A DNA stretch of 25,278 nucleotides from a virus, in IMG/VR virus record IMGVR_UViG_3300048694_000596, positions 1 through 25,278 of that record; one strand, given 5' to 3'. A program made the translations under genes and the position numbers. The notes under the pieces were generated by a model that was given only the letters and a program-made list of their open reading frames with translations, was not told the DNA's origin and ran no database searches. This document shows, piece after piece, positions 4,309 to 20,877 of the stretch (its first letter is position 1; each line of letters starts with the position of its first letter).

Positions 4309-4335
4309 CTATAGGAGCAATTTCAAGGCCCCCAT
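4309..4335 (-). repeat. Intergenic repeat, copy 1, with mini-ORF MGALKLLL
   Basis: Minus-strand ATGGGGGCCTTGAAATTG, then CTCC and TATAG. The mini-ORF MGALKLLL ends at TAG before the leader of the gene at 4275. The 3' arm after TTG is all pyrimidine, so it can pair with the G-run. It begins 9 bases after the stop of the 4345-4557 gene. Confidence 0.85.
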
Positions 4336-4344
4336 GTTTCTATC

Positions 4345-4557
4345 TCAGTCACGGGGAGATGTAGACCAAGGAGCATAAACACCTTCGATCTCACCAAACA
4401 AACCCGCAAGATATTTGGGGTCATTCTGAAACGATTTGGTGACAATCTTACCGTCTTCGATGAAGTTGTGGACTGTGTAATCCTTGCGGGATTCTGTCAT
4501 CACCTGGTAGACTTTGCCCGTGTGAGGGGAAGTGTAGGAATCAGTGGTTGTGCTCAT
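4345..4557 (-). CDS. Small hypothetical protein (70 aa)
   Basis: A 70-residue protein (MSTTTDSYTSPHTGKVYQVM...) with a central NFIEDGKIVTKSF. No family is recognised. Its ATG directly follows a copy of the intergenic repeat (mini-ORF stop TAG, then TATG), and no Shine-Dalgarno sequence is visible. Confidence 0.7.
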   Translation of the reverse strand: MSTTTDSYTSPHTGKVYQVMTESRKDYTVHNFIEDGKIVTKSFQNDPKYLAGLFGEIEGVYAPWSTSPRD

Positions 4558-4558
4558 A

Positions 4559-4585
4559 CTACAGAGACAATTTGAAGGCCCCCAT
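4559..4585 (-). repeat. Intergenic repeat, copy 2, with mini-ORF MGAFKLSL
   Basis: ATGGGGGCCTTCAAATTG, then TCTC. A TTG-to-TTC change in the loop turns Leu4 to Phe. The mini-ORF begins one base after the stop of the gene at 4587 and stops 1 base before the ATG at 4557. Confidence 0.85.
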
Positions 4586-4586
4586 G

Positions 4587-4766
4587 TTAGTTACTCAACC
4601 TGTCACCGATGTCCTCCAAGACGTTCAATATCACGTCTGTGCTATCCTCACCGTTCTCCTCTAATTGTTGCATAACGTCTTGCAGTTGTGGTAGAACTGT
4701 GGTGACAACTTCTGGCACCCGAATCATGACTCCATTGCCCAAATTCTTATACTTTAAGGGTCTCAT
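4587..4766 (-). CDS. Small hypothetical protein behind a hairpin leader (59 aa)
   Basis: The frame ATG 4766 to TAA 4587 encodes MRPLKYKNLGNGVMIRVPEV..., with an acidic C-terminal half (LEENGEDSTDVILNVLEDIG). No family is recognised. The ATG is immediately preceded by the 3' arm of a 17-bp perfect hairpin with a late-promoter-like octamer in its loop, which suggests timing control. No Shine-Dalgarno sequence is visible. Confidence 0.65.
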   Translation of the reverse strand: MRPLKYKNLGNGVMIRVPEVVTTVLPQLQDVMQQLEENGEDSTDVILNVLEDIGDRLSN

Positions 4767-4818
4767 AGTTTTGATAGCATAACTGGGGGTATTTATGGGG
4801 GGTTATGCTATCAAAACT
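4767..4818 (-). promoter_or_regulatory. 17-bp perfect hairpin directly before a start codon
   Basis: Arms 4767-4783 and 4802-4818 are perfect reverse complements (17 bp) around an 18-base loop. It lies 14 bases after the stop of the 4833 gene and ends against the ATG at 4766. No T-run follows on either strand, so a terminator is unlikely. Read-through RNA would fold it against the start codon; see the promoter entry at 4790. Confidence 0.85.
4790..4797 (-). promoter_or_regulatory. Candidate late promoter (CATAAATA) inside the hairpin loop
   Basis: The minus strand of the loop reads CATAAATA, one mismatch from TATAAATA. Initiation about six bases further on would begin an RNA near 4784, just before the 3' arm, so late transcripts would lack the 5' arm and could not form the hairpin. 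The same logic is known for T4 genes such as e, soc and I-TevI. Confidence 0.5.
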
Positions 4819-4832
4819 CAAACCCCTTGGTA

Positions 4833-5048
4833 TCACTCACTTACCTCACAGTAGATGTCATAAAGTTCTCGAAGTTTGTCCTCCGAATAGATAACCAACT
4901 GTGCGAGTCCTTCAGGTGTAATTGTGAGGGGATTTTCACCCGCCCACTGTACCAAATCACGCAGGCAGATTGACTCTGCTACCGTGTCACCTTCGAAGAT
5001 CTCTTCAAGTAGGAATTGCGATTCTTCAGTGATGCTCTGAGTGACCAT
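4833..5048 (-). CDS. Small acidic protein (71 aa)
   Basis: A 71-residue, Glu-rich helical protein (MVTQSITEESQFLLEEIFEG...) ending RELYDIYCEVSE. No family is recognised. It is the first gene of a minus-strand unit with a clear sigma70-type promoter 26-54 bases upstream, so early expression is likely. Early transcripts would continue into the hairpin at 4767. Confidence 0.75.
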   Translation of the reverse strand: MVTQSITEESQFLLEEIFEGDTVAESICLRDLVQWAGENPLTITPEGLAQLVIYSEDKLRELYDIYCEVSE

Positions 5049-5073
5049 TAGAATAACCTCTGAGTGTCCTTTC

Positions 5074-5102
5074 AGTATATATCAGGGGGATTGTATTGTC
5101 AA
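5074..5102 (-). promoter_or_regulatory. Sigma70-type early promoter (leftward)
   Basis: On the minus strand TTGACA (5097-5102), 17 bases, TATACT (5074-5079). The -35 box is exact. It drives the gene at 4833-5048 and lies back-to-back with the rightward promoter at 5150. Confidence 0.85.
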
Positions 5103-5149
5103 GGGGTTTGTGAGGGTTTCCTGGGGATTCTGGAAGTGTGTGGGGTGTC

Positions 5150-5178
5150 TTGACATTTGGGGCAGAAGGTGTTATAAT
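5150..5178 (+). promoter_or_regulatory. Perfect-consensus sigma70 promoter (rightward)
   Basis: TTGACA (5150-5155), 17 bases, TATAAT (5173-5178): both boxes are exact consensus. It is the only strong plus-strand sigma70 promoter I found. The leader to the homing endonuclease ATG is about 160 bases and contains a hairpin. Confidence 0.88.
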
Positions 5179-5346
5179 CGACGGACTTTAATCACAACAA
5201 CCTCAACCATTTTCTAAGTATAATCAACGAAATAAAACACAAACTATTATTTTTTTCCACATTTTCCACAAATAAGTAAAAAATTGTGGAAAACTTAAAA
5301 ATAACACTTTCCTATAAATAAAAGAACAGCAATCTATCATTTAACA
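5179..5346 (+). promoter_or_regulatory. Leader of the homing endonuclease with a 10-bp hairpin
   Basis: No gene lies in this A/T-rich leader. TTTTCCACAA (5262-5271) and TTGTGGAAAA (5284-5293) form a perfect 10-bp inverted repeat with a 12-base loop, preceded by a second TTTTTTCCACA copy. No T-run follows. The structure lies between an early promoter (5150) and a late promoter (5313), so only early transcripts would contain it. Confidence 0.6.
5313..5320 (+). promoter_or_regulatory. T4-type late promoter (TATAAATA) for the homing endonuclease
   Basis: Exact TATAAATA on the plus strand, 26 bases before the ATG at 5347 and downstream of the leader hairpin. Dual early/late control is known for the T4 homing endonuclease I-TevI. 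Confidence 0.8.
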
Positions 5347-6165
5347 ATGCGTCAGGGTATCATTTATCTCATTGAAAACAAGACTAACGGAAACAAATAT
5401 GTTGGTCAAACTGTAGTCCCTTTGAATAAACGATGGGCACAACATATTCAAGAAAGTAAGATATATTCAGACCGTCCTTTGTATAAAGCAATCAACAAAT
5501 ATGGACTACAAAATTTTAACATTAAAGTCATAGAAGAGACAACAGAGGATAAACTTAGTGAGAGAGAAATCTACTGGATAAAACACTTTAACTCATACAA
5601 TCATGGATATAATGCTACAACAGGTGGAGAACGTAGTAGCACACTGAGGGAAGATGTAAAGAAAAGAATATCACAATCTATGAGTAATGTTTCTCGTTCT
5701 GATGAATGGAAAACCAACGTAATTAAAGGAGTTAGAGATAAAGTTAAAAAAGGAGAAAAATGGGGATTTTTGTTAGATCAATACCGCGGCAATGGTTCTC
5801 ATCTTAAAATGAAAATACAGGGGACACATATACAAACTGGAGAAGTTTTAGAGTTTGATAGTTTATCAGATGCTTGCAAAGAATTAAACATCAAAAATGG
5901 TAATTTATCCAGAGCTATAAAAGAAGGATGGATGGCAGGTGGTTACAAATGGAAGAAACTTACAGACAAACAATATACTCGTGCTGTGATTGGTGTTGAT
6001 AAAAATACTGGAAAAAAATTGTATGAATGTGAAAGTATTAGGGCAGCACAAAGATTATTTTTATCTTCAGATGTAAAAGGTTCGGGTATAAGAAAATCAC
6101 TCAAAAATCCTGGTCATTATACTTGGAAAGGTTGTCATTGGTATTACTTAGACGAAGTAGAATAA
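5347..6165 (+). CDS. GIY-YIG homing endonuclease with NUMOD repeats (272 aa)
   Basis: N-terminal GIY-YIG nuclease domain (about 4-95): GIIYLI (4-9), KYVGQT (17-22), catalytic Arg29 in LNKRW, catalytic Glu74 in EREIYWI, and Asn89 in GYNATTGG. After a Lys-rich linker come two NUMOD1-like DNA-binding repeats, around 157-204 (FDSLSDACKELNI) and 212-268 (CESIRAAQRLF). All catalytic residues are present, so it looks active. It is the only plus-strand gene, free-standing, AT-richer than its surroundings, and has its own early and late promoters: a selfish insert. No strong Shine-Dalgarno sequence precedes the ATG. No intron was identified. Confidence 0.93.
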   Translation: MRQGIIYLIENKTNGNKYVGQTVVPLNKRWAQHIQESKIYSDRPLYKAINKYGLQNFNIKVIEETTEDKLSEREIYWIKHFNSYNHGYNATTGGERSSTLREDVKKRISQSMSNVSRSDEWKTNVIKGVRDKVKKGEKWGFLLDQYRGNGSHLKMKIQGTHIQTGEVLEFDSLSDACKELNIKNGNLSRAIKEGWMAGGYKWKKLTDKQYTRAVIGVDKNTGKKLYECESIRAAQRLFLSSDVKGSGIRKSLKNPGHYTWKGCHWYYLDEVE

Positions 6166-6169
6166 GCAT

Positions 6170-6200
6170 AAAAAAAGAGAGGGATTACCAGTCCCTCTCT
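6170..6200 (-). terminator. Strong rho-independent terminator (leftward)
   Basis: Arms 6176-6184 and 6192-6200 form a 9-bp stem (AGAGAGGGA/TCCCTCTCT) with a 7-base loop. On the minus strand it is followed by seven T. It stops the leftward operon 6290-7428 before it would run antisense into the homing endonuclease. There is no T-run on the plus strand. Confidence 0.88.
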
Positions 6201-6289
6201 ATACACCCAACCACCTTTTATCAGAATTATCTGTTACGTTACAAGGTCACTTTATCTGTAGAGTGTGGCAAACCTCTTCCACTTATGTG

Positions 6290-6565
6290 TTAGATAGGCA
6301 CAGAAGTACCGATGCGAACTTGATTCAAACTGTGCTGAACATATCCAACTTCCTTATTTGCTAGGAAAGCATTTCTCCAATGATAAGATGCTTCAGAACA
6401 GTTATGTACTCCATAATAGTAGTAACGAACTGCAGTCTTTCCGATCTTAAGTTGTTGAGAGATTTGTTTCGTTGTATAACCTTCCTTATACAGATTGTTG
6501 ATTGAAGTACACAGACGTTGAGAATGTTGTGTAGCATTACAGAACGAAATTGGAGCAACTTTCAT
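6290..6565 (-). CDS. Helix-turn-helix protein (91 aa)
   Basis: Residues about 22-52 (INNLYKEGYTTKQISQQLKI, then GKTAVRYYYYG) fit a resolvase/Hin-like or sigma-region-4-like helix-turn-helix: 'short helix, x-T-x-x-Q-I-S-x-x-L, turn, recognition helix'. It may be a small DNA-binding regulator or a remnant of a mobile-element protein. It is the last gene before the terminator at 6170 and the neighbour of the homing endonuclease, so a link to that insert is possible but unproven. Confidence 0.75.
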   Translation of the reverse strand: MKVAPISFCNATQHSQRLCTSINNLYKEGYTTKQISQQLKIGKTAVRYYYYGVHNCSEASYHWRNAFLANKEVGYVQHSLNQVRIGTSVPI

Positions 6566-6568
6566 TGT

Positions 6569-6757
6569 TCAGATAGTGGTGAGATCGTTGATAGTAATGA
6601 TTTCGAGTTCGGTTATATCATCATTGAAATGTTCTTCCCATTCCCTATACAATGCGATCGACTCATCAATCATATCACGACTGACAAGATACACAATCCG
6701 ACATTTAACTTGCATCAGAATGTCGTGAAGCATTGAATCTTTTTGTTCGATGTTCAT
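6569..6757 (-). CDS. Small helical protein (62 aa)
   Basis: A 62-residue acidic protein with a long amphipathic helix (IDESIALYREWEEHFNDDIT). No family is recognised. Its ATG overlaps the stop of the gene before it (ATGA), and its stop is three bases from the next ATG, so it belongs to the coupled operon 6290-7428. Confidence 0.7.
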   Translation of the reverse strand: MNIEQKDSMLHDILMQVKCRIVYLVSRDMIDESIALYREWEEHFNDDITELEIITINDLTTI

Positions 6758-6885
6758 TTAATCAATTCGGCAGGAGATCCACAAGAACGATAGAAGTCAA
6801 TCATACGATTTGCTTCCTCAAGTGTAGAGAATGATTGCGTCCTCCATTGTTGTGCATAAGGAGTGAAATAACGAATGGTGAACAT
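6754..6885 (-). CDS. Small hypothetical protein (43 aa)
   Basis: MFTIRYFTPYAQQWRTQSFS... is followed by LEEANRMIDFYRSCG. The layout (strand, T-x-E-E-A helix) recurs in several small proteins in this region and resembles host 'xxF-S-T-x-E-E-A' modules. It overlaps the next gene by four bases (ATGA). Confidence 0.7.
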   Translation of the reverse strand: MFTIRYFTPYAQQWRTQSFSTLEEANRMIDFYRSCGSPAELIK

Positions 6886-6889
6886 TAGT

Positions 6890-7066
6890 TTAGTTGCTTT
6901 CTTGAGTGTGAAGAATGTCAATCATTTTCTGGTGAAATTGATCTGCTTTGACGACAACATTATGCGATTCGGTTGCATCATCAATATCATATTGTGTCAT
7001 CTCAAGAGCAAAGATTACAGTGGATAAAAGATTAGTGAGTTGCTCAATCTTTTGTTCGTTGGTCAT
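6890..7066 (-). CDS. Small helical protein (58 aa)
   Basis: The preferred start at 7066 (MTNEQKIEQLTNLLSTVIF...) shares one base with the upstream stop (TGATG). A longer frame from 7087 exists but would overlap the upstream gene by 22 bases. The product is one or two amphipathic helices with an acidic centre. No family is recognised. Confidence 0.7.
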   Translation of the reverse strand: MTNEQKIEQLTNLLSTVIFALEMTQYDIDDATESHNVVVKADQFHQKMIDILHTQESN

Positions 7067-7257
7067 CAATTTACCCTCAGTTCGCATACATCAACTTCAG
7101 GATACATCAGTTCATCAGGTGCATATTCATCCTTCATTTCACGAAGAACTTGTGCATAAACTTCTGCATCTTTTTCGTCAAAGAATAGTTTATGAAGTTC
7201 CATTTGTGCATAGTAATCATTATCACGGGCGAAGACACCGTAGACTTGATTGTTCAT
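7066..7257 (-). CDS. Small hypothetical protein (63 aa)
   Basis: MNNQVYGVFARDNDYYAQME... contains LFFDEKDAEVYAQVLREM. The pattern 'V-Y-x-V-x-A, D-x-x-x-A-x-x-Y' resembles the protein at 8176-8376, so the two may be distant paralogues. It ends with a TGATG overlap into the next gene. Confidence 0.72.
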   Translation of the reverse strand: MNNQVYGVFARDNDYYAQMELHKLFFDEKDAEVYAQVLREMKDEYAPDELMYPEVDVCELRVN

Positions 7258-7260
7258 AAC

Positions 7261-7428
7261 TTAGTTAAGTTCTACTTTGGCAATGAAACCATTCTGTGCA
7301 TTTTGATAGATTACATTCCAACTATCAGCAACAGATTGGGCAGTTTCAAGATCATCATAAACCCCGTAAGTGTAGGGATTGTTGTCATCTTGAGAAGAGA
7401 ACTGAAGAACCTTGTGAGTGAGAATCAT
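7261..7428 (-). CDS. Small hypothetical protein (55 aa)
   Basis: MILTHKVLQFSSQDDNNPYT... then YDDLETAQSVADSWN. Again a beta strand plus a helix introduced by an acidic turn. It is the first gene of the operon that ends at the terminator 6170, and the first gene after the repeat copy at 7448. The start follows a leader without a Shine-Dalgarno sequence. Confidence 0.7.
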   Translation of the reverse strand: MILTHKVLQFSSQDDNNPYTYGVYDDLETAQSVADSWNVIYQNAQNGFIAKVELN

Positions 7429-7483
7429 GGTTGGGGTTGTGGTTACACTATAGGGACAATTTCAAGGCCCCCATGTTACTGAT
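7428..7483 (-). repeat. 56-bp perfect direct repeat, left copy
   Basis: Identical over 56 bases to 7802-7857. It contains repeat copy 3 and its leader. Together the two copies bracket the gene at 7486-7797 as one recombination cassette. Confidence 0.95.
7448..7474 (-). repeat. Intergenic repeat, copy 3, with mini-ORF MGALKLSL
   Basis: ATGGGGGCCTTGAAATTG, then TCCC and TATAG. The mini-ORF starts 11 bases after the stop of the gene at 7486; the next gene begins at 7428 after a short C-rich leader. Confidence 0.88.
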
Positions 7484-7485
7484 AC

Positions 7486-7797
7486 TCAGACCAGTTTGAT
7501 GCCATTACCGAAAGCAACATCACCTTCGATTGTTGATACAAACCATTGGAAGTCTTTTTGATACACATACTCTCCATTTCCGTGTGCTTGGAGAATAGCA
7601 TTCAGACGTGATTTAGTGGTGTTTGATTGATACCCACCATCAAACAGTTCCAACCAAGTCTCACCTACCATTGCAATCAGATTGCTATACAGATAGACGA
7701 AACTTACACCTTCAATGTTAATGACTTGAGTGTTGTCTTTCTTCCAATCAGTCTCAGTGCTGATTGCTTTGTTCATTTGTTTTTCGATGACTCGCAT
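7486..7797 (-). CDS. Conserved small phage protein (103 aa; start may be Met8)
   Basis: After an optional seven-residue start, the protein reads MNKAISTETDWKKDNTQVIN, then VSFVYLYSNLIAMV, LFDGGYQSNTTKSRLNAIL and YQKDFQWFV. I recognise this overall pattern from a family of uncharacterised phage proteins; the W-x-S-x-T-T-K-S-R-x-N motif region is its hallmark. It is bracketed by two perfect 56-bp repeats, so it could be gained or lost as a cassette by recombination. Met8 (7776) may be the true start. Confidence 0.8.
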   Translation of the reverse strand: MRVIEKQMNKAISTETDWKKDNTQVINIEGVSFVYLYSNLIAMVGETWLELFDGGYQSNTTKSRLNAILQAHGNGEYVYQKDFQWFVSTIEGDVAFGNGIKLV

Positions 7798-7801
7798 TTT
7801 G

Positions 7802-7857
7802 TGGTTGGGGTTGTGGTTACACTATAGGGACAATTTCAAGGCCCCCATGTTACTGAT
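7802..7857 (-). repeat. 56-bp perfect direct repeat, right copy
   Basis: Identical to 7428-7483, offset 374 bases. Its right end includes a remnant of the former gene end (CTGAGCATCAGTAAC) that is no longer in frame with the gene at 7884. Confidence 0.95.
7822..7848 (-). repeat. Intergenic repeat, copy 4, with mini-ORF MGALKLSL
   Basis: Same sequence as copy 3, 374 bases away. It lies about 33 bases after the stop of the gene at 7884. Confidence 0.88.
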
Positions 7858-7883
7858 GCTCAGAACAGATTGTGAATTGTCAA

Positions 7884-8141
7884 TTAACCTCCACCGTACA
7901 CATAAGATACAACTTCTTCCTTCTCATAAGGAACATTCTCAATCACTTTGATTCGTGCTTCGTTAAACTCTTTTTGCTTACACTCTTTGACATAATCATT
8001 ATCACCACATGCAAACTCTTTCATGAAAACTTGTTCGCAACGGGCAAGAGATTCAGCAGCAATCACACACATTCCATCAGTGTAATCATAAAGAACTTCG
8101 TTGATGATGTAGAGATTCATTTGCGTTTGGTTGGTGTTCAT
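7884..8141 (-). CDS. Small hypothetical protein (85 aa)
   Basis: An 85-residue acidic protein (MNTNQTQMNLYIINEVLYDY...) ending EEVVSYVYGGG, with VIAAESLARCEQVFMKEFAC in the middle. It fits the accessory-protein pattern of strand, turn, helix. The function is unknown. Start by analogy with the other repeats: TAGTAGTATG directly before codon 2. Confidence 0.75.
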   Translation of the reverse strand: MNTNQTQMNLYIINEVLYDYTDGMCVIAAESLARCEQVFMKEFACGDNDYVKECKQKEFNEARIKVIENVPYEKEEVVSYVYGGG

Positions 8142-8145
8142 ACTA

Positions 8146-8162
8146 CTAGGACAATTTCAAGG
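8146..8162 (-). repeat. Intergenic repeat, copy 5, 5' arm lost
   Basis: CCTTGAAATTGTCC and TAGTAGT are kept, but the G-run and mini-ORF start are replaced by ATTAAAGTTACTCA. The replacement sequence is shared with copy 6, so the two arose by duplication. Confidence 0.75.
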
Positions 8163-8175
8163 TGAGTAACTTTAA

Positions 8176-8376
8176 TCAGGCAGCGATTGAAGATTGAAAG
8201 GATACTTCACGAACCTCCATCAGAGCATAATCGTATCCGTAAACTGCCACCAAATGCTCACGGTAGGCATCAGCAGCAGACCAGCAATCAAACAGGCGCA
8301 GAGTATCAAACACTTCGCCCCCATAATCAACACCAGCGATCACAGCGTAGACTTTCATCGTTTGAGCGTTGTTCAT
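8176..8376 (-). CDS. Small hypothetical protein (66 aa)
   Basis: MKVYAVIAGVDYGGEVFDTL is preceded by MNNAQT; then LFDCWSAADAYREHLV. I recognise the pattern 'K-V-Y-x-V-I-A-G-x-D-Y...D-C-x-S-A-A-x-A-Y' from small phage proteins with no known role. Either Met1 or Met7 could start it; the repeat-to-ATG spacing (TAGTAGTATG) favours Met1. Confidence 0.78.
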   Translation of the reverse strand: MNNAQTMKVYAVIAGVDYGGEVFDTLRLFDCWSAADAYREHLVAVYGYDYALMEVREVSFQSSIAA

Positions 8377-8380
8377 ACTA

Positions 8381-8398
8381 CTAGGACACTTTGGAGGT
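8381..8398 (-). repeat. Intergenic repeat, copy 6, most diverged
   Basis: Reads ACCTCCAAAGTGTCCTAGTAGT on the minus strand, so the central TTGAAATTG has changed, but the 3' part and the ATG spacing are intact. It shares its upstream flank (about 16 bases) with copy 5. Confidence 0.65.
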
Positions 8399-8410
8399 GA
8401 GTAACTTTAA

Positions 8411-8698
8411 TTATCGGGAAAGTGCGCCGAGGAGGTGCATTTCAGATGCAATCATCTTTTTTGCGATACGCTTACCATTGATTTGGTAAGTATAACGAAA
8501 AGCACCTTTTACAGTCTTGGAAAGTTTAGCAGTCAGACAAACTTCACCAATGCGATTATAGTTCAAATCAAACATTGGGAAGTAGTGATTGCAAACTCCA
8601 TCCAGTCGGTAATCAACAACACCGTTGCGTTGTTGATAGTTTTCAGCAGCAAGTTTCTCAGTGAGAATGATGCTGTCGTAGAGGTCGTTGATGTTCAT
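8411..8698 (-). CDS. Small hypothetical protein (95 aa)
   Basis: MNINDLYDSIILTEKLAAEN... has a helical N-terminus and a strand-rich C-terminal half (GEVCLTAKLSKTVKGAFRYT, NGKRIAKKMIASE). No family is recognised. It is a single-gene cassette between repeat copies 6 and 7. Confidence 0.75.
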   Translation of the reverse strand: MNINDLYDSIILTEKLAAENYQQRNGVVDYRLDGVCNHYFPMFDLNYNRIGEVCLTAKLSKTVKGAFRYTYQINGKRIAKKMIASEMHLLGALSR

Positions 8699-8702
8699 AC
8701 TA

Positions 8703-8726
8703 CTAGGACAATTTCAAGGCCCCCAT
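8703..8726 (-). repeat. Intergenic repeat, copy 7, with mini-ORF MGALKLS
   Basis: ATGGGGGCCTTGAAATTGTCC, then TAGTAGTATG into the gene at 8698. It begins three bases after the stop of the gene at 8730, so mini-ORF and both genes are within ribosome reach. Confidence 0.88.
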
Positions 8727-8729
8727 GTT

Positions 8730-8870
8730 TCAATCACTTTGAATCCACTCTTGTTCAACATCACAAAACTCCATCAAAAAGTAATCAATAGATACTCCTT
8801 CAATCGCAGCATCTTGTAGAGTTTGTTGATACTGTTCAGATGAAAGAAGAAAGAAATCAGTCTCAATCAT
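8730..8870 (-). CDS. Small acidic protein (46 aa)
   Basis: The preferred start at 8870 gives MIETDFFLLSSEQYQQTLQD... ending FCDVEQEWIQSD. It overlaps the stop of the upstream membrane-protein gene by four bases (ATGA). A longer frame from 8984 would be a shadow of that gene. Role unknown. Confidence 0.7.
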   Translation of the reverse strand: MIETDFFLLSSEQYQQTLQDAAIEGVSIDYFLMEFCDVEQEWIQSD

Positions 8871-9016
8871 TGTGGTTGAATGATGTCTGCTACAGTATGC
8901 AATGTGTTGGCAGTGATGTTGCGAACTCCTGGTGAGAGTATAAACGCAACGGTGAAAATCAGGAGGATTGTCTTCACTTTGCACGGTGGTTTGAATGTTA
9001 AAGTTCTACGACTCAT
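8867..9016 (-). CDS. Small membrane-anchored protein (49 aa)
   Basis: The frame from ATG 9016 encodes MSRRTLTFKPPCKVK, then the hydrophobic span TILLIFTVAFILSPGV and a C-terminal RNITANTLHTVADII. The positive N-terminus and one hydrophobic stretch suggest N-in membrane insertion or an uncleaved signal anchor. It overlaps the upstream stop by one base (TGATG) and the downstream ATG by four (ATGA), which strongly supports it. A GTG at 8977 is an alternative start. Confidence 0.72.
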   Translation of the reverse strand: MSRRTLTFKPPCKVKTILLIFTVAFILSPGVRNITANTLHTVADIIQPQ

Positions 9017-9198: not shown

Positions 9199-9234
9199 TT
9201 CAGTGTAATTTAGTGTGAAAACAGTTTGTGTGAA

Positions 9235-9423: not shown

Positions 9424-9427
9424 ACTA

Positions 9428-9451: not shown

Positions 9452-9462
9452 GTTACTGATAC

Positions 9463-11647: not shown

Positions 11648-11648
11648 A

Positions 11649-15400: not shown

Positions 15401-15450
15401 GTCATATTATTGAGTAACAGGAATGAGATCTTTAGGCAATGATTGGTTCT

Positions 15451-16371
15451 TCACCAGTTTTTGGCAATGGTGAAGTTTGCGTGAGAGAATGTTTCACGGT
15501 CCACCACTTTCAGTGTGCCATACTTGTTGGAGATCACATACCCTTCGTGGAAGGATTCTTCATCACCAATGGAACAATCAATATCATCCTCTTCATGAAT
15601 GAACAGGAACAGATCATCCTTGATTGACTTCACCAACTTCCACAAACGGATGAGGTTGATGTCACAATCACATTTCTCTGCAATTTCATCTTCACAGATG
15701 ACCCTTTGCTCCCTGATGCAGGCATTGATCTCTTTTTTGATTTGTGATGCTTTACGGGGAGAAACAAACTCACACAGAGTGCTCATTTGCTTGGCAAACT
15801 TACACACTTCCTCCAAATCCTCACGGAAAGGATTCAGTGACACTGCAGGTTGCACAAACAAGCAATTCTTAGTGCTGATGAGTTTGGTGGTGAGAGGAGC
15901 AGCAGTCATCTCACGAATATCATCAGAACCACTGTAGATTGTATGTGGTGCAATGATAATGTCTTGACGAACTGGGGCAGGGAACTTATAGGTAATTGTG
16001 TTAGGTGTGAAGGTATCCAACCCACCACCGAAACCAATCCAATCACCTTGCAGCACTTGTTGAGTGCGAGGCAGAAAATCAAGGCAGAAGATGAGAATCT
16101 GAGTTACACGGGGTTGTCCACCAAAATGAGTGAAGATGTCATCCTCATTATAGCACAGACGAATCTTTTGCTTGTTAAATGCTGCTTTGGTGCAGACAAA
16201 GAACTTACCATTTTGAGGATTTGTACCCCACACAATCGCAGGACTTCCATCAAGTTTTGTAGAGATAGAACTATCAGGTTCAGAGAACCAGTCAAGAACC
16301 TCAAGATTTCCAGTCAGCACCATATCTTCAGGATGCTCAAGATGTTTGTTTTGCATTTGATTGTTGCTCAT
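15451..16371 (-). CDS. Nucleotidyltransferase/ligase-like protein (306 aa)
   Basis: Residues 36-49 (ISTKLDGSPAIVWG) contain KxDG (Lys39), motif I of covalent nucleotidyltransferases such as DNA/RNA ligases. Later motifs fit in order: GDW (109-111, motif III-like), EGYVIS (276-281, motif IV) and LKVVDR (287-292, motif V). Cyanophages encode a conserved family of this type (probably DUF6267). Lys39 would carry AMP; the substrate is unknown. The Glu normally just before the Lys is Thr here. The protein is about twice the size of a bare catalytic core. It starts directly after repeat copy 16. Confidence 0.78.
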   Translation of the reverse strand: MSNNQMQNKHLEHPEDMVLTGNLEVLDWFSEPDSSISTKLDGSPAIVWGTNPQNGKFFVCTKAAFNKQKIRLCYNEDDIFTHFGGQPRVTQILIFCLDFLPRTQQVLQGDWIGFGGGLDTFTPNTITYKFPAPVRQDIIIAPHTIYSGSDDIREMTAAPLTTKLISTKNCLFVQPAVSLNPFREDLEEVCKFAKQMSTLCEFVSPRKASQIKKEINACIREQRVICEDEIAEKCDCDINLIRLWKLVKSIKDDLFLFIHEEDDIDCSIGDEESFHEGYVISNKYGTLKVVDRETFSHANFTIAKNW

Positions 16372-16372
16372 A

Positions 16373-16399
16373 CTACTGGTGCAATTTCAAGGCCCCCAT
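16373..16399 (-). repeat. Intergenic repeat, copy 16, with mini-ORF MGALKLHQ
   Basis: ATGGGGGCCTTGAAATTG, CACC: the only copy with a purine in the 3' arm. Mini-ORF stop TAG is one base from the ATG at 16371. Confidence 0.85.
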
Positions 16400-16412
16400 G
16401 TTTGAATGGGGT

Positions 16413-16547
16413 TCAAGTGTTATCTTTCTTTCTATTAAGGAGTTCTCTTTCTTCCTCTGGTCTCATCACTTTGAAATAGTAAGATAAAATAGAAGAAACT
16501 ACTGAAATCATACAAATATAAATGAAAATCGCAAGTGAGATGCTCAT
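16413..16547 (-). CDS. Small single-span membrane protein (44 aa)
   Basis: MSISLAIFIYICMISVVSSI is an N-terminal hydrophobic span, then a charged tail (EEERELLNRKKDNT). It overlaps the upstream stop by four bases (ATGA). Confidence 0.66.
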   Translation of the reverse strand: MSISLAIFIYICMISVVSSILSYYFKVMRPEEERELLNRKKDNT

Positions 16548-16714
16548 TTTACTTTACATGTTGCGGCAGAAGCATTTTGATTACAAAATTGCTCTTTGGC
16601 AGTTTGATGATAATATGCTTTGAAAAGTTTGTCATCACGATTGATCAGAAATGCGTTCCATCCAAGAATAGCAATGAAAGCAAGAAAAATGTATGTAATT
16701 TGCTTGGAGTTCAT
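16544..16714 (-). CDS. Small membrane/exported protein (56 aa)
   Basis: MNSKQITYIFLAFIAILGWN is a membrane segment; the tail (KEQFCNQNASAATCKVK) has two Cys that could pair outside the cytoplasm. It is coupled to the next gene by an ATGA overlap. It follows the terminator at 16730. Confidence 0.68.
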   Translation of the reverse strand: MNSKQITYIFLAFIAILGWNAFLINRDDKLFKAYYHQTAKEQFCNQNASAATCKVK

Positions 16715-16717
16715 TTT

Positions 16718-16725
16718 AATTTATA
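16718..16725 (-). promoter_or_regulatory. Late-promoter-like octamer (TATAAATT)
   Basis: One mismatch from TATAAATA, placed right after a terminator T-run in the same TTTTTTAGTATAAAT context as at 1186. It lies only three bases before the ATG at 16714, so an RNA from it would miss that start codon. Doubtful. Confidence 0.3.
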
Positions 16726-16729
16726 CTAA

Positions 16730-16751
16730 AAAAGGAGGATAAATCCTCCCG
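16730..16751 (-). terminator. Rho-independent terminator
   Basis: Minus strand: stem GGAGGAT/ATCCTCC around a TTT loop, then six T. It ends the unit of the gene at 16756. Confidence 0.85.
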
Positions 16752-16755
16752 ATGA

Positions 16756-17013
16756 TCATTGAACTGTTGCATACTTAGCACGGACTTCTTGATACTTTTC
16801 TGAAGTAAAGTCTAGTGCTTTTTGAATGTAAGGAACAACAATTTGAGTAAAGTTCCTTACATCTTCCACCAGTTTGTTAACTTCATACTGGTGGATTTGC
16901 CAACGAACCTTAATGTCCTCAATATATTGTTGACGAGTGATGAGAACCTCAGGAACTTTCACTTCAGTAACAACAACGACTTGAGCAACAGGTTGTTTGC
17001 GGGAACGAGGCAT
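16756..17013 (-). CDS. Small helical protein (85 aa)
   Basis: A basic N-terminus (MPRSRKQPVAQVVVVTEVKV) followed by a long helical region (QYIEDIKVRWQIHQYEVNKL, then SEKYQEVRAKYATV). It is likely a coiled-coil protein. No family is recognised. It is a single-gene unit ended by the terminator at 16730. Confidence 0.75.
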   Translation of the reverse strand: MPRSRKQPVAQVVVVTEVKVPEVLITRQQYIEDIKVRWQIHQYEVNKLVEDVRNFTQIVVPYIQKALDFTSEKYQEVRAKYATVQ

Positions 17014-17035
17014 GGAGACCTTGTGAACTACACAG

Positions 17036-17059
17036 TAGGGACAATTTCAAGGCCCCCAT
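17036..17059 (-). repeat. Intergenic repeat, copy 17
   Basis: ATGGGGGCCTTGAAATTGTCCC. The mini-ORF has no early stop here (MGALKLSLLCSS...). The stem is intact. Confidence 0.85.
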
Positions 17060-17064
17060 GTTTT

Positions 17065-17757
17065 TTACCAAGTCGTATATCTATGCTGAAGTTCAGATTC
17101 TTTCTTCTTGCCAGTTGATTGAAGAACCAAATCCCTAAGTTTTCTTTGTCCTGCCTTAGTGATTCTTGCTCTTTCTGCTCTACTCATACCAACTACAGGT
17201 CTCTTGGGTTGATCTGCAGGTCTGTGATCAACTTGAGGTGCTTTCTTTGTAGTTAGTTTTCTTGCTTGCGCAGAAAGTTCAGATGGTTTTGGTTTTGCTG
17301 CTGCTGGTGCTTCTCCACCACCTTTCTTTGCTGCTGCGCGTGCCTTTGCTGCCTTTATTCTTTCTGCTTTTGCTGCTGCTAATTGTGCCTCTCTTGCAGA
17401 TCCACGTTCTTGTGTTGGTGCCGCAGTTTGAGTTCCTCTTTGCTGCCCAACATCACTACGTGTTTTATACTGAGATGGTTGTCTAGTTTCACCTGCCTTT
17501 GCCTGCTTCATTCTACGCATTTCAGGAGCAGTTTTTTTACGTTCTGGTGCAATTCTACCACCTGCACCAGTTGTTCTAACTGAAGCAGAACGCATTAAAT
17601 CTGCATCGTATGCTTCTTTAGGATAATTTTTAGATGTCACCACATTATATTCTTTCTTTCCAGGTCCAACATCAGCAATTCTATATCCAATAGGTCTTTG
17701 AACATCTACTTTAATTTTCTTTTTTGCTTCCGCAACAAATTGAGAAAACGTTTTCAT
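17065..17757 (-). CDS. Internal head protein with a T4-type capsid-targeting sequence (230 aa)
   Basis: The N-terminus MKTFSQFVAEAKK closely matches the capsid-targeting sequence of T4 internal proteins (MKTYQEFIAEA); the prohead protease would cut after Glu11. The rest is very basic and Ala/Lys/Arg-rich (AEAQLAAAKAERIKAAKARA-like), with no hydrophobic span. It is likely packaged inside the head with the DNA and injected or structural. A late-promoter variant and a good ribosome-binding site (AGAAAGG) precede the ATG, and a terminator insulates it. Content unlike its neighbours supports a structural role. Confidence 0.8.
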   Translation of the reverse strand: MKTFSQFVAEAKKKIKVDVQRPIGYRIADVGPGKKEYNVVTSKNYPKEAYDADLMRSASVRTTGAGGRIAPERKKTAPEMRRMKQAKAGETRQPSQYKTRSDVGQQRGTQTAAPTQERGSAREAQLAAAKAERIKAAKARAAAKKGGGEAPAAAKPKPSELSAQARKLTTKKAPQVDHRPADQPKRPVVGMSRAERARITKAGQRKLRDLVLQSTGKKKESELQHRYTTW

Positions 17758-17774
17758 CTGAATACCTTTCTAAG

Positions 17775-17782
17775 TATTTATT
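17775..17782 (-). promoter_or_regulatory. Late promoter variant (AATAAATA)
   Basis: One mismatch from TATAAATA, ending 17 bases before the ATG at 17757, with AGAAAGG between. It follows a terminator T-run, as at 1186. Confidence 0.62.
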
Positions 17783-17789
17783 AAATCAC

Positions 17790-17813
17790 AAAAAAGAGGG
17801 TATTGCAACCCTC
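17790..17813 (-). terminator. Rho-independent terminator
   Basis: Minus strand: stem GAGGGT/ACCCTC around TGCAAT, then six T. It ends the unit 17828-18278 before the late head-protein gene. Confidence 0.85.
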
Positions 17814-17827
17814 AATGTGACACTTTC

Positions 17828-17983
17828 TCAATTGTCACTACTATTAAATTGTTTTACTCGTTCTCTACGAAGTTTAAGAAGATTGTCGTAAGTTTTCTTT
17901 TGACCTTCTGTGAAGATAAAATCTTGTTTCCTCCAAATTTCACGAAGTTCTTGAAGTTGGTTAATAATTTCGTGGGATTTCAT
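17828..17983 (-). CDS. Conserved small helical protein (51 aa)
   Basis: MKSHEIINQLQELREIWRKQ... then TEGQKKTYDNLLKLRRERVK. A two-helix protein of a type I have seen in several phages; the function is unknown. It ends just before the terminator at 17790. Its ATG is 2 bases from the upstream stop. Confidence 0.75.
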   Translation of the reverse strand: MKSHEIINQLQELREIWRKQDFIFTEGQKKTYDNLLKLRRERVKQFNSSDN

Positions 17984-17985
17984 AA

Positions 17986-18129
17986 TCAATCGTTAACAGC
18001 AGTGACGTGAACAACTTTTGCGTTAGGGTTGCGAGCAAGGGCAGTTTCTTTTGCTTCCCTATAATCACGGGCATAAACTTCCTCGTAGAATGTTTTGCCT
18101 GCGACGTAAAGTTGGACTTTGCATTTCAT
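17986..18129 (-). CDS. Small hypothetical protein (47 aa)
   Basis: MKCKVQLYVAGKTFYEEVYA then DYREAKETALARNPNAKVV. The strand-helix-strand layout (K-V-x-L-Y-V-x-G..., A-x-x-x-x-x-A-L-A-R-N-P) is a typical small phage module. No function is known. Confidence 0.74.
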   Translation of the reverse strand: MKCKVQLYVAGKTFYEEVYARDYREAKETALARNPNAKVVHVTAVND

Positions 18130-18143
18130 GTGAGTAAATTAAA

Positions 18144-18278
18144 TCAAAAATCGTAATCGTTATTCAGAAGAGTATCAAATGACTTATCATCATATTGATC
18201 TTCAAATTCCTTAAACTCTGGAAGATCATAGATCTCTCCAGGAGCATCTGCGATTTCGGACCAAAGTTCGTCGTACAT
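18144..18278 (-). CDS. Small acidic protein (44 aa)
   Basis: MYDELWSEIADAPGEIYDLP... ends LLNNDYDF. Strongly acidic, mostly helical. No family is recognised. It is first in the unit after repeat copy 18. Confidence 0.68.
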   Translation of the reverse strand: MYDELWSEIADAPGEIYDLPEFKEFEDQYDDKSFDTLLNNDYDF

Positions 18279-18295
18279 AGTTGGAATTGATTACA

Positions 18296-18322
18296 CTAAA
18301 GGAACAATTTGAAAGCCCCCAC
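18296..18322 (-). repeat. Intergenic repeat, copy 18, GTG mini-ORF
   Basis: GTGGGGGCTTTCAAATTGTT then CCTTTAG. It has start codon GTG, a synonymous GCC-to-GCT change, and still ends with TAG (mini-ORF MGAFKLFL). Confidence 0.8.
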
Positions 18323-18324
18323 GT

Positions 18325-18552
18325 TTAACACATTGGAGCATCTGGAACAGAAATTACTAGACATTGAGGATACAAACATTCTACAATGTATTGTGCCAGA
18401 ATCTGAGTTGGTGCAATAATTTCAACTTTGATCAAATCAACAATTTGATTGCCATCTTCATCAGTTCCTGCAGGATTCTCGACATCAACTAACCAAACAT
18501 GACCATTTGTTTTGTGATCCTCAAAAGTAACTTTTTTTACATCAACAGTCAT
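18325..18552 (-). CDS. Small hypothetical protein (75 aa)
   Basis: MTVDVKKVTFEDHKTNGHVW... then IVDLIKVEIIAPTQILAQYI. Beta-rich with one helix, ending VISVPDAPMC. No function is recognised. It overlaps the upstream gene by 11 bases. Confidence 0.72.
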   Translation of the reverse strand: MTVDVKKVTFEDHKTNGHVWLVDVENPAGTDEDGNQIVDLIKVEIIAPTQILAQYIVECLYPQCLVISVPDAPMC

Positions 18553-18703
18553 AATATTTTTCCATAGTTATATATTTTATTTGTTCTTGAAGTTGTAGTA
18601 TTTCTTTTTGTTGTTCTATAATTTTGTCTTGTAATTGAGAAATGCGATCTTGATACTGTTGTTTGAGATCAAACGCAAGACGATTCATTTCGGGATTACT
18701 CAT
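18542..18703 (-). CDS. Small coiled-coil protein (53 aa)
   Basis: MSNPEMNRLAFDLKQQYQDR... then ISQLQDKIIEQQKEILQLQE: clear heptads with Ile/Leu at a and d positions, so it probably dimerises. It shares one base with the upstream stop (TGATG) and overlaps the next gene by 11 bases. Confidence 0.72.
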   Translation of the reverse strand: MSNPEMNRLAFDLKQQYQDRISQLQDKIIEQQKEILQLQEQIKYITMEKYYDC

Positions 18704-18936
18704 CAGGTCGTGAAAGACTCAACAATACGGGATTCTTCTTCATCCACAAGAGCAAAACGAGGAGCAGCAACTACACGTTCCATAATCTTGTTGTCATAAG
18801 TATCATTATAGGAAATTTTACTATCCCGAAGAATATCATGACATTCAATATCATCTTCGGCAATAACATTGATTAGACCACCATACTCACTCGAAGGAAA
18901 CGGAACCCAGAAATCAACGATATACAGATACTTCAT
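18703..18936 (-). CDS. Small hypothetical protein (77 aa)
   Basis: MKYLYIVDFWVPFPSSEYGG... continues VIAEDDIECHDILRDSKISY and ends EEESRIVESFTT. The pattern (strand, acidic turn, helix) matches cyanophage accessory proteins. A sigma70-like promoter (18960-18988) lies just upstream. Confidence 0.75.
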   Translation of the reverse strand: MKYLYIVDFWVPFPSSEYGGLINVIAEDDIECHDILRDSKISYNDTYDNKIMERVVAAPRFALVDEEESRIVESFTT

Positions 18937-18959
18937 TTGTTTGTGTAAATTACTCCTTT

Positions 18960-18988
18960 AGTTTAATGTCAGTCGTCTTTATTGTCAA
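18960..18988 (-). promoter_or_regulatory. Possible sigma70-type promoter
   Basis: TTGACA (18983-18988), 17 bases, TAAACT (18960-18965, four of six -10 positions). It overlaps the 3' end of the gene at 18969. Confidence 0.5.
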
Positions 18989-19061
18989 GGTCTGAAGCAA
19001 CAATAAAAGAAGTTCCTATTGTAAGGAGAACTCCCATTAAAACACCAAGAATGAAAGTCAT
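18969..19061 (-). CDS. Very small membrane peptide (30 aa)
   Basis: MTFILGVLMGVLLTIGTSFI then VASDLDNKDD: one transmembrane span with an acidic tail. It overlaps the upstream stop (ATGA), which supports it. Confidence 0.6.
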   Translation of the reverse strand: MTFILGVLMGVLLTIGTSFIVASDLDNKDD

Positions 19062-19210
19062 ACAAACTCAGCAAGATAATAATCACAAGTTACTTCCAAT
19101 CGTGCTGCTTCTGCTTCAACAGTTTTCCAAAATTCATCATTTTCCTTTGCTCTCTCCATTGCATGTTGAATGAAAAGTTCAATCGTTTCATCACTCATTG
19201 AGTTCTCCAT
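19058..19210 (-). CDS. Small helical protein (50 aa); start possibly in the repeat
   Basis: The ATG at 19210 gives MENSMSDETIELFIQHAMER..., ending CDYYLAEFV. The repeat's mini-ORF (MGALKLFLMC) is in frame and without a stop here, so a longer product from 19240 is possible. Mostly helical and acidic; no family is recognised. Confidence 0.72.
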   Translation of the reverse strand: MENSMSDETIELFIQHAMERAKENDEFWKTVEAEAARLEVTCDYYLAEFV

Positions 19211-19216
19211 ACACAT

Positions 19217-19240
19217 AAGAAACAATTTTAAGGCCCCCAT
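19217..19240 (-). repeat. Intergenic repeat, copy 19, in frame with the gene
   Basis: ATGGGGGCCTTAAAATTGTT: synonymous TTG-to-TTA change, and the stop is lost so the mini-ORF continues into the downstream gene. Confidence 0.78.
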
Positions 19241-19243
19241 GAT

Positions 19244-19387
19244 TCATTTAACTAAAATTTGAATGCCCTTTGCACCTTGTTTTTCTATAATTTTACACCA
19301 ATATTCCGCATCATCAATAGTAAGCAAATTGGCGATTTGCTTGGAATATCCCTTCTTTTTCGGTTTTAGGTAAATGACCTGATACAT
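19244..19387 (-). CDS. Small hypothetical protein (47 aa)
   Basis: The frame from ATG 19387 encodes MYQVIYLKPKKKGYSKQIAN..., ending KQGAKGIQILVK. I recognise 'M-Y-Q-V-x-Y-L-K-P-K-x-K-G-Y-S' as a conserved small cyanophage protein. It overlaps the tail of the upstream membrane-protein gene by 74 bases in another frame; this one looks like the real gene in that stretch. Confidence 0.7.
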   Translation of the reverse strand: MYQVIYLKPKKKGYSKQIANLLTIDDAEYWCKIIEKQGAKGIQILVK

Positions 19388-19607
19388 TTTCTATGTAAAC
19401 CTCAACTTTTGTTTCCTTGTTCCAATGTCTGATTACACCAGCACAAATAAAAATGTTAGTTATTAAATATGTAAAAAATATGAATGTTCTAATCAAAGCA
19501 ATTTTATCGGATTCTTTATCACATTTACTTGCTTTTTCTCCCAATGCTTTAGCCCACCACCTCCAAGCATTCTTTTTTTTCATATTTTGATTTTCTTGAT
19601 TTGACAT
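19314..19607 (-). CDS. Single-span membrane protein with an odd extended tail (97 aa)
   Basis: Residues 13-30 (NAWRWWAKALGEKASKCD), ALIRTFIFFTYLITNIFICA (about 37-56) and RHWN match a conserved cyanophage membrane protein that normally ends soon after RHWN(D). Here the frame continues about 35 residues (KETKVEVYIENVSG...) over the gene at 19244, as if the stop codon had been lost. A frameshift or stop mutation is likely at the tail. It overlaps the upstream gene by 59 bases. Confidence 0.75.
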   Translation of the reverse strand: MSNQENQNMKKKNAWRWWAKALGEKASKCDKESDKIALIRTFIFFTYLITNIFICAGVIRHWNKETKVEVYIENVSGHLPKTEKEGIFQANRQFAYY

Positions 19608-19809
19608 AATTCAATTCTTTCCATTGATTTCTGTAACATAAAACAAGAACTCTTTCATTTCTGTGCAAATTACACGCTTGATAATTCTCACAATTCTTTG
19701 GACGAACTGATACTTCTATTGTAATGTAAAGTGTATCTTTAAAATATATCCAACCTTCAACACCTTTTGTCCAGATTACATAGTCATCGACCTTAGGTTC
19801 ATATTTCAT
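19549..19809 (-). CDS. Conserved small phage protein (86 aa)
   Basis: Contains DDYVIWTKGVEGWIYFKDTL, YITIEVSVRPK and NYQACNLHRNERVLVLCYRN. I recognise this as a conserved phage protein of unknown function; the 'W-x-x-G-V-E-G-W-I-Y' motif suggests a beta-barrel. Its tail overlaps the start of the membrane-protein gene by 59 bases. Confidence 0.8.
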   Translation of the reverse strand: MKYEPKVDDYVIWTKGVEGWIYFKDTLYITIEVSVRPKNCENYQACNLHRNERVLVLCYRNQWKELNYVKSRKSKYEKKECLEVVG

Positions 19810-19815
19810 AGAAGT

Positions 19816-20202
19816 CTAATCCCAAGAAACGTTTTGAATATAAAATGAAGGCATTACGATTGTCCAAGCACCTAGTCCATCAACTCCACCAACTTTATAG
19901 TCCCATTTATATTCAAATTTATTATGACTATCCCATGTCACAAAACCCTTTTCTTTATCAAACCTTGACTTGATTGCAAGAGAAAATCTGTTAGAAAAGA
20001 TATTACGACTGCGAAGTGCCCCACTACTTTCACGGGTTTCCACTACTTTACACGTATCAATAAGAAACTCATCTTTACTTTCAAGAGCACAAGGAGTTTC
20101 ATAAGTGAATGGACGATATTCCTTTTTCTCTACAACAGTTTGAGTCTGTGCAAATGCAGGAGAAGTGCAAAGAACTGCAGCAAGAGTAAGAAGTTTTTTC
20201 AT
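19816..20202 (-). CDS. Secreted protein with a signal peptide (128 aa)
   Basis: The start at 20202 gives MKKLLTLAAVLCTSPAFAQT, a typical Sec signal peptide with cleavage after AFA. The mature part has Cys pairs (ETPCALESKDEFLIDTCKVV) and a basic central region. A longer frame from 20229 exists but the TGATATG arrangement with the upstream gene favours 20202. It probably acts in the periplasm or outside the cell; the function is unknown. Confidence 0.8.
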   Translation of the reverse strand: MKKLLTLAAVLCTSPAFAQTQTVVEKKEYRPFTYETPCALESKDEFLIDTCKVVETRESSGALRSRNIFSNRFSLAIKSRFDKEKGFVTWDSHNKFEYKWDYKVGGVDGLGAWTIVMPSFYIQNVSWD

Positions 20203-20203
20203 A

Positions 20204-20332
20204 TCAGGAAAAATATTTAAAGAGTTCAACGAAGTTTGCTTTTCCGTGAATCAGTATAGCACCAATCAATACCAAATCAATCAGTACCAATGATGTGAAT
20301 AAAAAGATTAAAGGTTTTGATGGTGTTGTCAT
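20204..20332 (-). CDS. Small single-span membrane protein (42 aa)
   Basis: MTTPSKPLIFLFTSLVLIDL then VLIGAILIHGKANFVELF: one long hydrophobic span and a basic/amphipathic end. It overlaps the RlpA-like gene stop by four bases (ATGA) and its own stop is one base from the next ATG. Confidence 0.68.
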   Translation of the reverse strand: MTTPSKPLIFLFTSLVLIDLVLIGAILIHGKANFVELFKYFS

Positions 20333-20640
20333 CCTACAACTCTCCAACAAACAACAGCATTTCCTTTACTTGTGGATTGAATTTGTGCAAATGCAGCATA
20401 AGAAAGATCAAGGTCTGCATGACTATAGGGACCACGATCATTGACACGAACAGTCACTTGCTTCATATTATCTTGATTTGTTACCCTGATGCGTGTACCC
20501 ATAGGAAGATAAGGATGAGCTGCAGTCCAACGATAAGCATCAAACCTTTCCCCATTTGCGGTAATTTGACCATGAAACCCATCTCCTATCCCATAGTATG
20601 TTGCAAGTCCACAAGTAAGCCCAGCAATTAAACTAATCAT
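20329..20640 (-). CDS. RlpA-like double-psi beta-barrel protein (103 aa)
   Basis: The start at 20640 (overlapping the upstream stop, ATGA) gives MISLIAGLTCGLATYYGIGD. The motifs TANGERFD, WTAAHPYLPMGTRIRVTN and VRVNDRGPY, then DLDLSYAAFAQI, match the RlpA/double-psi beta-barrel domain of septal ring lytic transglycosylases and expansins; the Asp in NDRGP is the conserved acidic residue. The short hydrophobic N-terminus leaves little room for a signal peptide, so export may be non-classical or the start lies upstream. It may cut or loosen peptidoglycan during infection. Confidence 0.85.
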   Translation of the reverse strand: MISLIAGLTCGLATYYGIGDGFHGQITANGERFDAYRWTAAHPYLPMGTRIRVTNQDNMKQVTVRVNDRGPYSHADLDLSYAAFAQIQSTSKGNAVVCWRVVG

Positions 20641-20846
20641 TTTACAATCTCCCAATGCTCATCACCATTTTCGGACATCCAAAAGAAATACCTTTTATTG
20701 ATAGATGCTAGAAATAATTTACCTTCTTTCTTTTGTTCAACCTCACAACTATGAAGTCCATCCATCATATTAGCAAAACGATTTTTTGCCTTGCTTGACT
20801 TTGGTTTTACGCAAACAAATTGTTTTTTAGTCACTGATTTAATCAT
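20637..20846 (-). CDS. Conserved small phage protein (69 aa)
   Basis: MIKSVTKKQFVCVKPKSSKA then NRFANMMDGLHSCEVEQKKE and FLASINKRYFFWMSENGDEH. I recognise the 'R-F-x-N-x-M-D-G-x-H-S-C-x-V' stretch from phage small proteins; the role is unknown. It is basic at the N-terminus. It follows repeat copy 20. Confidence 0.78.
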   Translation of the reverse strand: MIKSVTKKQFVCVKPKSSKAKNRFANMMDGLHSCEVEQKKEGKLFLASINKRYFFWMSENGDEHWEIVK

Positions 20847-20853
20847 TCCAGTT

Positions 20854-20877
20854 ATAGAGCAATTTTAAGGCCCCCAA
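20854..20877 (-). repeat. Intergenic repeat, copy 20, last copy
   Basis: TTGGGGGCCTTAAAATTGCT then CTATAAC. The start codon has changed to TTG, the loop codon to TTA. No copy is seen beyond this point. Confidence 0.78.

Follow-up and report, generated by a model that had tools for sequence, protein, structure and literature searches.

A compact intergenic element with a phage-specific 5' half, often fused to the start codon, is a candidate promoter of small genes in cyanomyoviruses

What is the role of a short sequence that recurs, always in one direction, at the junctions between the small genes of a virus? The question is raised by IMG/VR virus record IMGVR_UViG_3300048694_000596, a virus fragment of 25,278 bases (hereafter the window), for which an earlier note, made from the sequence alone, had described about 20 intergenic copies of one repeat, all in a single orientation relative to the minus-strand genes and present nowhere else in the window. 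All three observations were borne out. The core, CAATTTCAAGGCCCCC, had 18 matches with no more than three mismatches, all on the plus strand, between 4318 and 20875 (shuffled sequence: mean 0.17, maximum 2), and two other copies, with cores at 8152 and 8387, had the common 3' half but ACTCACC in place of GGGGGCC in the 5' half, giving a total of 20; scans of the window detected no further core copies outside these 20 junctions. The conservation extends 14 bases beyond the core, up to the start codon, defining an element of 30 nucleotides, and all 20 elements are found where two genes meet, within 4304-20875, on the minus strand, which is the coding strand here. The window belongs among the T4-like cyanophages, on the basis of its gene content (including genes for gp25, DUF6267, an SF2 helicase, a 2Fe-2S ferredoxin and a GIY-YIG endonuclease) and its matches to cyanomyovirus records; no closely related annotated phage was found for it.

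The element was numbered on the coding strand, with position 1 as the first G of GGGGG. In the window, positions 1-10 are GGGGGCCTTG, positions 11-16 AAATTG (AAAGTG in most phages) and positions 17-30 TCCYWWTAGTRTRA; positions 11-30 constitute a constant block, AAAGTGTCCCTATAGTRTRA, and positions from about -3 to 10 a variable part, referred to here as the address. The four bases following TTG or GTG are pyrimidines in 19 of the 20 copies, as stated in the earlier note, the exception being the copy at 16382 (CACC). Conserved bases TA..T are found at positions 23-28 of the consensus, and AGTAGT at positions 21-26 in nearly half of the copies. The element spans the intergenic gap, beginning just after the upstream stop codon, which usually lies 1-15 nucleotides ahead of position 1, and ending at the start codon. 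In 10 of the 20 window copies, the ATG occupies positions 27-29 (hereafter ATG27), and most of the others have GTAA or a similar sequence at positions 27-30, with the ATG further downstream.

The distribution of the element was investigated by pattern scans, a helicase search and a position weight matrix, in a set of 322 loci (3.0 Mb) in which the IMG/VR contigs are partly redundant and related, and open reading frames were called by simple rules. We obtained 1,674 instances in 291 of the 322 loci, mostly cyanomyovirus contigs, and five matches summed over both the reversed and the complemented control sequences. The element precedes about half of the small genes of one region, in many viruses of ocean and lake cyanobacteria. 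Where genomes are complete or large, the copies are grouped in a single cluster beside gp25, in the small-gene region, with 12 copies in SynMITS9220M01 (M01; 36298 to 50001), 11 in S-SM2, 11 in G009 and 15 in G016; no element was detected in Syn9, or in the 72 kb of S-PM2 searched. The strand was uniform within each locus, with a single exception that is likely to be a false match.

The two parts of the element evolve differently. The 5' half had about 65 contig-consensus forms (e.g. AACATGGGGGCCTTG, AGTTACTCACCTCC, AACTTGGATCCTCT, AACTGGGCCCCTG and AAAGGGGGGTCGCCT), and 60 different address forms were found upstream of the DUF6267 gene alone. In pairwise comparisons, the counts of which are not independent given the redundancy and relatedness mentioned above, address identity was 0.877 between copies preceding different genes of the same contig, 0.472 between copies preceding the same gene in different contigs, only 0.56 even where the proteins were 90-99% identical, and 0.466 at unrelated junctions; the corresponding values for the constant block were 0.85 (same contig, different gene) and 0.82 (different contig, same gene). 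The copies within a genome evolve in concert: the element takes the version of the resident phage and does not travel with the gene. Only 21 of 1,105 copies deviated from the address form of their own contig, and 14 of these matched the form of another contig, including window copies 5 and 6 (cores 8152 and 8387). A foreign address is also carried by the copy at 4892 in L095, the gene of which is 97% identical to a gene in L233 with almost the same address. The address of M01 is shared with the more distant G016, although most M01 genes are closer to those of S-SM2, only 29 of the 203 compared being clearly closer to G016.

The geometry of the start codon is constrained. ATG27 was present in 636 of 1,324 distinct elements and opened a frame of at least 40 codons in 94% of the judgeable cases, with two and 24 cases for the other two frames. 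For genes without ATG27, the start codon lies no earlier than position 42, and the 15 nucleotides after position 27 contain almost no starts. Virtually every copy has a purine at position 27, and 99% have a T at position 26. Judging from sequence comparisons, some ATG27 starts are demonstrably genuine: the MTHYNPYV gene of G009 has ATG27 as its start codon, and its counterpart at 9198 in the window, which lacks the element, begins with the same residue; the MKNTHLEHPE gene also begins exactly at ATG27. Some elements lie about 110 nucleotides ahead of the gene, upstream of a sigma-70-like promoter (M01 41426 and 42536, and in other phages), where an element serving the start codon would be useless. 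A Shine-Dalgarno role was rejected, as elements have fewer such motifs (0% and 5%) than the background (11%) or element-less genes (18%).

Known promoters are scarce at these junctions. Sigma-70-like promoters were found at 2.8% of the 988 element junctions (1.3% in shuffled sequence) and the late promoter NATAAATA at 0.0%; the values for 676 gapped junctions without the element were 16.1% (2.8% in shuffled sequence) and 11.5%, respectively. Intrinsic terminators were located within 60 nucleotides upstream of 37 of 1,307 elements (0.8% expected), and never downstream; in 30 of 34 terminator-element pairs there was no other promoter. Among these, L080, L120 and L124 have no possible start codon other than ATG27, which requires a 5' end to lie between the T-run and the ATG. 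Among the element-less window genes, those at 1163, 16714 and 17757 (minus strand) have T4-like late promoters similar to TATAAATA, two of them directly behind terminators, and TTGACA promoters are present at 5048 and 18936.

The exclusion of sigma-70 and late promoters, the terminators directly upstream, the purine-only position 27 and the location of the ATG either at 27 or at least 15 nucleotides beyond it make a promoter the best reading of the element. A promoter role, wherever transcription starts, seems quite probable to us. More specifically, and with a probability of roughly 0.6, we infer a compact phage promoter confined to the small-gene region, in which positions from about -3 to 10 would serve as the phage-specific address and positions 11-30 as a constant initiation block, with transcription starting at or very near position 27. 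The resulting mRNAs would be leaderless, with the AUG of the gene at their 5' end, or would have GUA or AUA there and a leader of at least 15 nucleotides. The address would be read by a trans-acting, probably phage-encoded factor coevolving with all copies together, and such coevolution would keep the copies of one genome similar to each other while those of different genomes diverge.

Several points weigh against this reading. With a start at position 27, the sequence from -11 to -7 is GTCCC, which does not resemble any sigma-70 promoter, and a T7-type RNA polymerase (PF00940) was not matched in M01, S-SM2, Syn9 or four large contigs, in a search in which no positive control was matched. The constant block is also similar to the -10 regions found in other cyanomyoviruses (CCCTATACTAT in S-CAM7); on that basis, transcription would start near position 33, outside ATG27 transcripts. 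Most of the terminator-element cases correspond to one junction, that before DUF6267, across many phages, and elements located inside operons would likewise avoid other promoters. Finally, attempts to find the trans factor from phyletic patterns and from correlations with address class identified none, and the leads that emerged were weak. The late sigma factor gp55 was rejected as the specificity factor: the M01 protein is 91% identical to its counterpart in G016, which has the same address class, and also 91% identical to that in G009, which has a different one; its identity to the S-SM2 protein is 77%. Two other proteins were recorded. An Arg/Lys-rich low-complexity protein (window 17065-17757, minus strand; M01 40815-41420) was shared by all four of the genomes with the element that were compared, but not by Syn9, and showed a weak correlation with address class (partial r 0.27, 116 contigs). 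A conserved 87-amino-acid protein, MRGEIDNIPPRSYNNK..., encoded at the edge of the element cluster (M01 49718-49981; S-SM2 58289), is found in five element-bearing genomes, and not in Syn9 or the part of S-PM2 searched.

The element might instead act at the RNA level within a polycistronic mRNA, as a translational operator or enhancer or as a cleavage site for a phage RNase, translation being set by binding or cutting at positions 26/27, with RegA as a model, but we consider this unlikely. It would account for an element filling the stop-to-start gap and overlapping the ATG in half of the cases, and cleavage after U26 would equally yield AUG-first mRNAs or mRNAs with 15-nucleotide leaders. RegA genes are present in these phages (M01), and the class A form AAAUUG...UAUGUAA appears similar in sequence to aaAAUUGUUAUGUAA, the selected ligand of T4 RegA (PMC3014915). 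This likeness is, however, limited to class A, most phages having AAAGTG; Syn9 has regA without the element, and the fast turnover of the address is unexpected for the conserved RegA. There is also no covarying structure, and an RNA-level role fits poorly with copies lying directly behind terminators without any other promoter, or some 110 nucleotides before the start codon, with another promoter in between. A sigma-70-type middle promoter, with the address as a MotA-box-like activator box at -35, TATAGT or TAGTRT as the -10 and a start near 33-35, is more doubtful still. The conserved TA..T would suit a -10, the address would occupy the place of the MotA box (PMC2988021), and related isolates carry TGCTATACT or CCCTATACTAT repeats at equivalent junctions, but nearly half of the copies have AGTAGT at positions 21-26, and the ATG27 starts, 94% of which are in frame, are real, as indicated by the MTHYNPYV and MKNTHLEHPE genes and by the element-less homologue with the same start. 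Two other candidates were rejected: a sigma-54 geometry (GG at -25/-24), because the GG is not invariant, and a T7 promoter on the plus strand (TACACTATAGGGACA), which would be antisense to all genes and is absent from the AGTAGT form. Cyanobacteria are not known to have sigma-54. In BLAST searches, TACACTATAGGGACA at window positions 7443-7472 and 7817-7846 (plus strand) matched annotated promoters of Vibrio phage ICP3, a likeness that we judge to be coincidental because CTATAG is palindromic.

The earlier note had read the repeat as a functional analogue of the promoter-early stem-loop (PeSL) cassettes of T-even phages (Arbiol 2010; Comeau 2014, cited in PMC4503421), which shuffle genes in hyperplastic regions. 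The part of this comparison that stands is that of a short, repeated intergenic element in a hyperplastic region, in one orientation, before small genes and sometimes with a terminator, with a sequence unlike that of T4 PeSLs; PeSLs were considered for S-PM2 and judged unlikely there (PMC4503421). The stem-loop was not supported. Pairs 2-20, 3-19, 4-18 and 5-17 were no more frequent than with shuffled partners among 176 distinct contig consensuses, the window copies did not fold more stably than their dinucleotide-shuffled versions (z-scores of -1.4 to +1.8), and the mean folding energy (-5.13) was only slightly lower than that of elements with swapped halves (-4.77). In copies 13-15 (cores 13368, 13988 and 15383), said in the earlier note to pair perfectly, the four bases are CCCC. 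The terminator-like T-run attributed to copy 15 lies within 15 nucleotides of the helicase ATG (15367) and is missing from homologues (TTATTAGATT, TTACTAGATG); being beside the start codon and not conserved, it is not a terminator, and a scan of the window for intrinsic terminators called no element as such. Two chance-level Rfam matches below the cut-off were obtained in the window, neither at an element.

Gene order was largely colinear in 944 contig pairs (7816 concordant and 412 discordant pairs; tau 0.90), so PeSL-like shuffling is not shown, but 83 of the 186 gene families following elements are singletons, and 14 foreign-address copies match the class of another contig. The address stays with the resident phage. 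It is very improbable that the element is mainly a recombination spacer for gene swapping, the copies being kept alike by gene conversion with no reader protein, despite its position in a hyperplastic region, the singleton families and the few foreign-address copies (L095 4892; window cores 8152 and 8387). Moreover, gene conversion of about 13 nucleotides in 10-15 dispersed copies, with neighbouring bases differing, would need selection anyway. The element also differs from PeSLs in having no conserved stem-loop, no sigma-70 early promoter and a half that is phage-specific.

Comparisons with other systems are likewise partial. In T7-type promoters, the recognition part is the same throughout a given phage but not from one phage to another, and a purine start lies inside a conserved block. 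The element may be likened to them, with a constant initiation part (CTATAGT), a phage-specific recognition part and a start-codon spacing compatible with a start inside the conserved block, but its address, at about -29 to -17, is too far upstream for such a polymerase. The address might correspond to the activator box that replaces the -35 before pre-late genes in T4 MotA middle promoters, but it is hypervariable and the start codon overlaps the supposed -10; the MotA box, (a/t)(a/t)(a/t)TGCTTtA at 12 ± 1 bp before TATAAT, is not found in the element consensus, and cyanomyoviruses are reported to lack motA (PMC2984593). The intergenic repeats (29-58 bp) of the tailed halovirus HF2 are promoters by reporter assay (PMC8707807), but this virus is archaeal and its repeats are conserved in sequence and position in the genus, rather than hypervariable. 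In other cyanomyoviruses (ACG-2014f, S-CAM7 and Sf-FS3/Syn9), the same region contains sigma-70-like repeats, at one per junction, that share a tag (AAGTGGCAC, AACTGACCAC, AGTGTCCAC) resembling AAAGTGTCC; they differ in having about 45 nucleotides, often a hairpin, between the tag and TATACT or TATAAG, and an ATG about 20 nucleotides or more downstream. These clade-specific repeats are AAGTGGCACA...TGCTATACT in L372 (ACG-2014f), AACTGACCACT...CCCTATACTAT in L371 (S-CAM7) and AGTGTCCACTATCGGTTGAAATGG...CTATAAGAGTCAAAGG in L373 (Sf-FS3) and L103 (Syn9), and in all four the shared tag comes after the stop codon. An address that is hypervariable yet homogeneous genome-wide, in an element fused with the start codon, appears to be new, although priority is not certain.

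Within the window, the 10 copies with ATG27 are copies 2 (4554-4583; gene start 4557), 5 (8138-8167; 8141), 6 (8373-8402; 8376), 7 (8695-8724; 8698), 8 (9420-9449; 9423), 9 (10310-10339; 10313), 10 (10907-10936; 10910), 11 (11644-11673; 11647), 12 (12178-12207; 12181) and 16 (16368-16397; start of the DUF6267 gene, 16371), the foreign addresses of copies 5 and 6 being TTAAAGTTACTCACCTTG and TTAAAGTTACTCACCTCC, respectively. Copies 1 (4304-4333; address GGGGGCCTTG, start codon 4275), 3 (7443-7472; gene start 7428), 4 (7817-7846; 7797) and 18 (18291-18320; GGGGGCTTTC, gene start 18278) are of the GTGTAA type, copy 17 (17028-17057; gene start 17013) is of the GTGTAG type and copy 13 (13354-13383; gene start 13341) is of the TTGTAA type. 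Copy 14 (13974-14003; gene start 13962) has a degenerate 3' half, CTTACATAA, and copy 15 (15369-15398), preceding the SF2 helicase gene, has the 3' half TTTTTAGATT; the 3' half is weaker in copy 19 (19209-19238; TTTCTTATGTGTATG) and weakest in copy 20 (20846-20875; CTCTATAACTGGAATG). The GIY-YIG endonuclease gene (5347-6165, plus strand) lies within the array in the opposite orientation, with a perfect TTGACA-17-TATAAT promoter at 5150-5178.

The control of early and middle genes in cyanomyoviruses, in the absence of MotA, has been described as unclear (PMC2984593), and the element is a widespread candidate for a third promoter class, beside the sigma-70-like and late promoters. SynMITS9220M01, a cultured phage with a complete genome bearing the element, allows testing, and the turnover of the address gives a direct handle on finding the trans factor. 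The rapid, genome-wide turnover of such a recognition block, with downstream proteins still 90% identical, constitutes a strong case of concerted evolution of a cis-element. We suggest, tentatively and at less than even odds, that it reflects a self-recognition code for transcription, in which the transcription units of the small-gene region of each cyanomyovirus bear an address specific to that virus, for recognition by a phage factor that evolves rapidly. If so, genes would flow between phages but be expressed only behind the resident address, co-infecting phages would be unable to use each other's promoters, and leaderless mRNAs would arise from the fusion of promoter and start codon.

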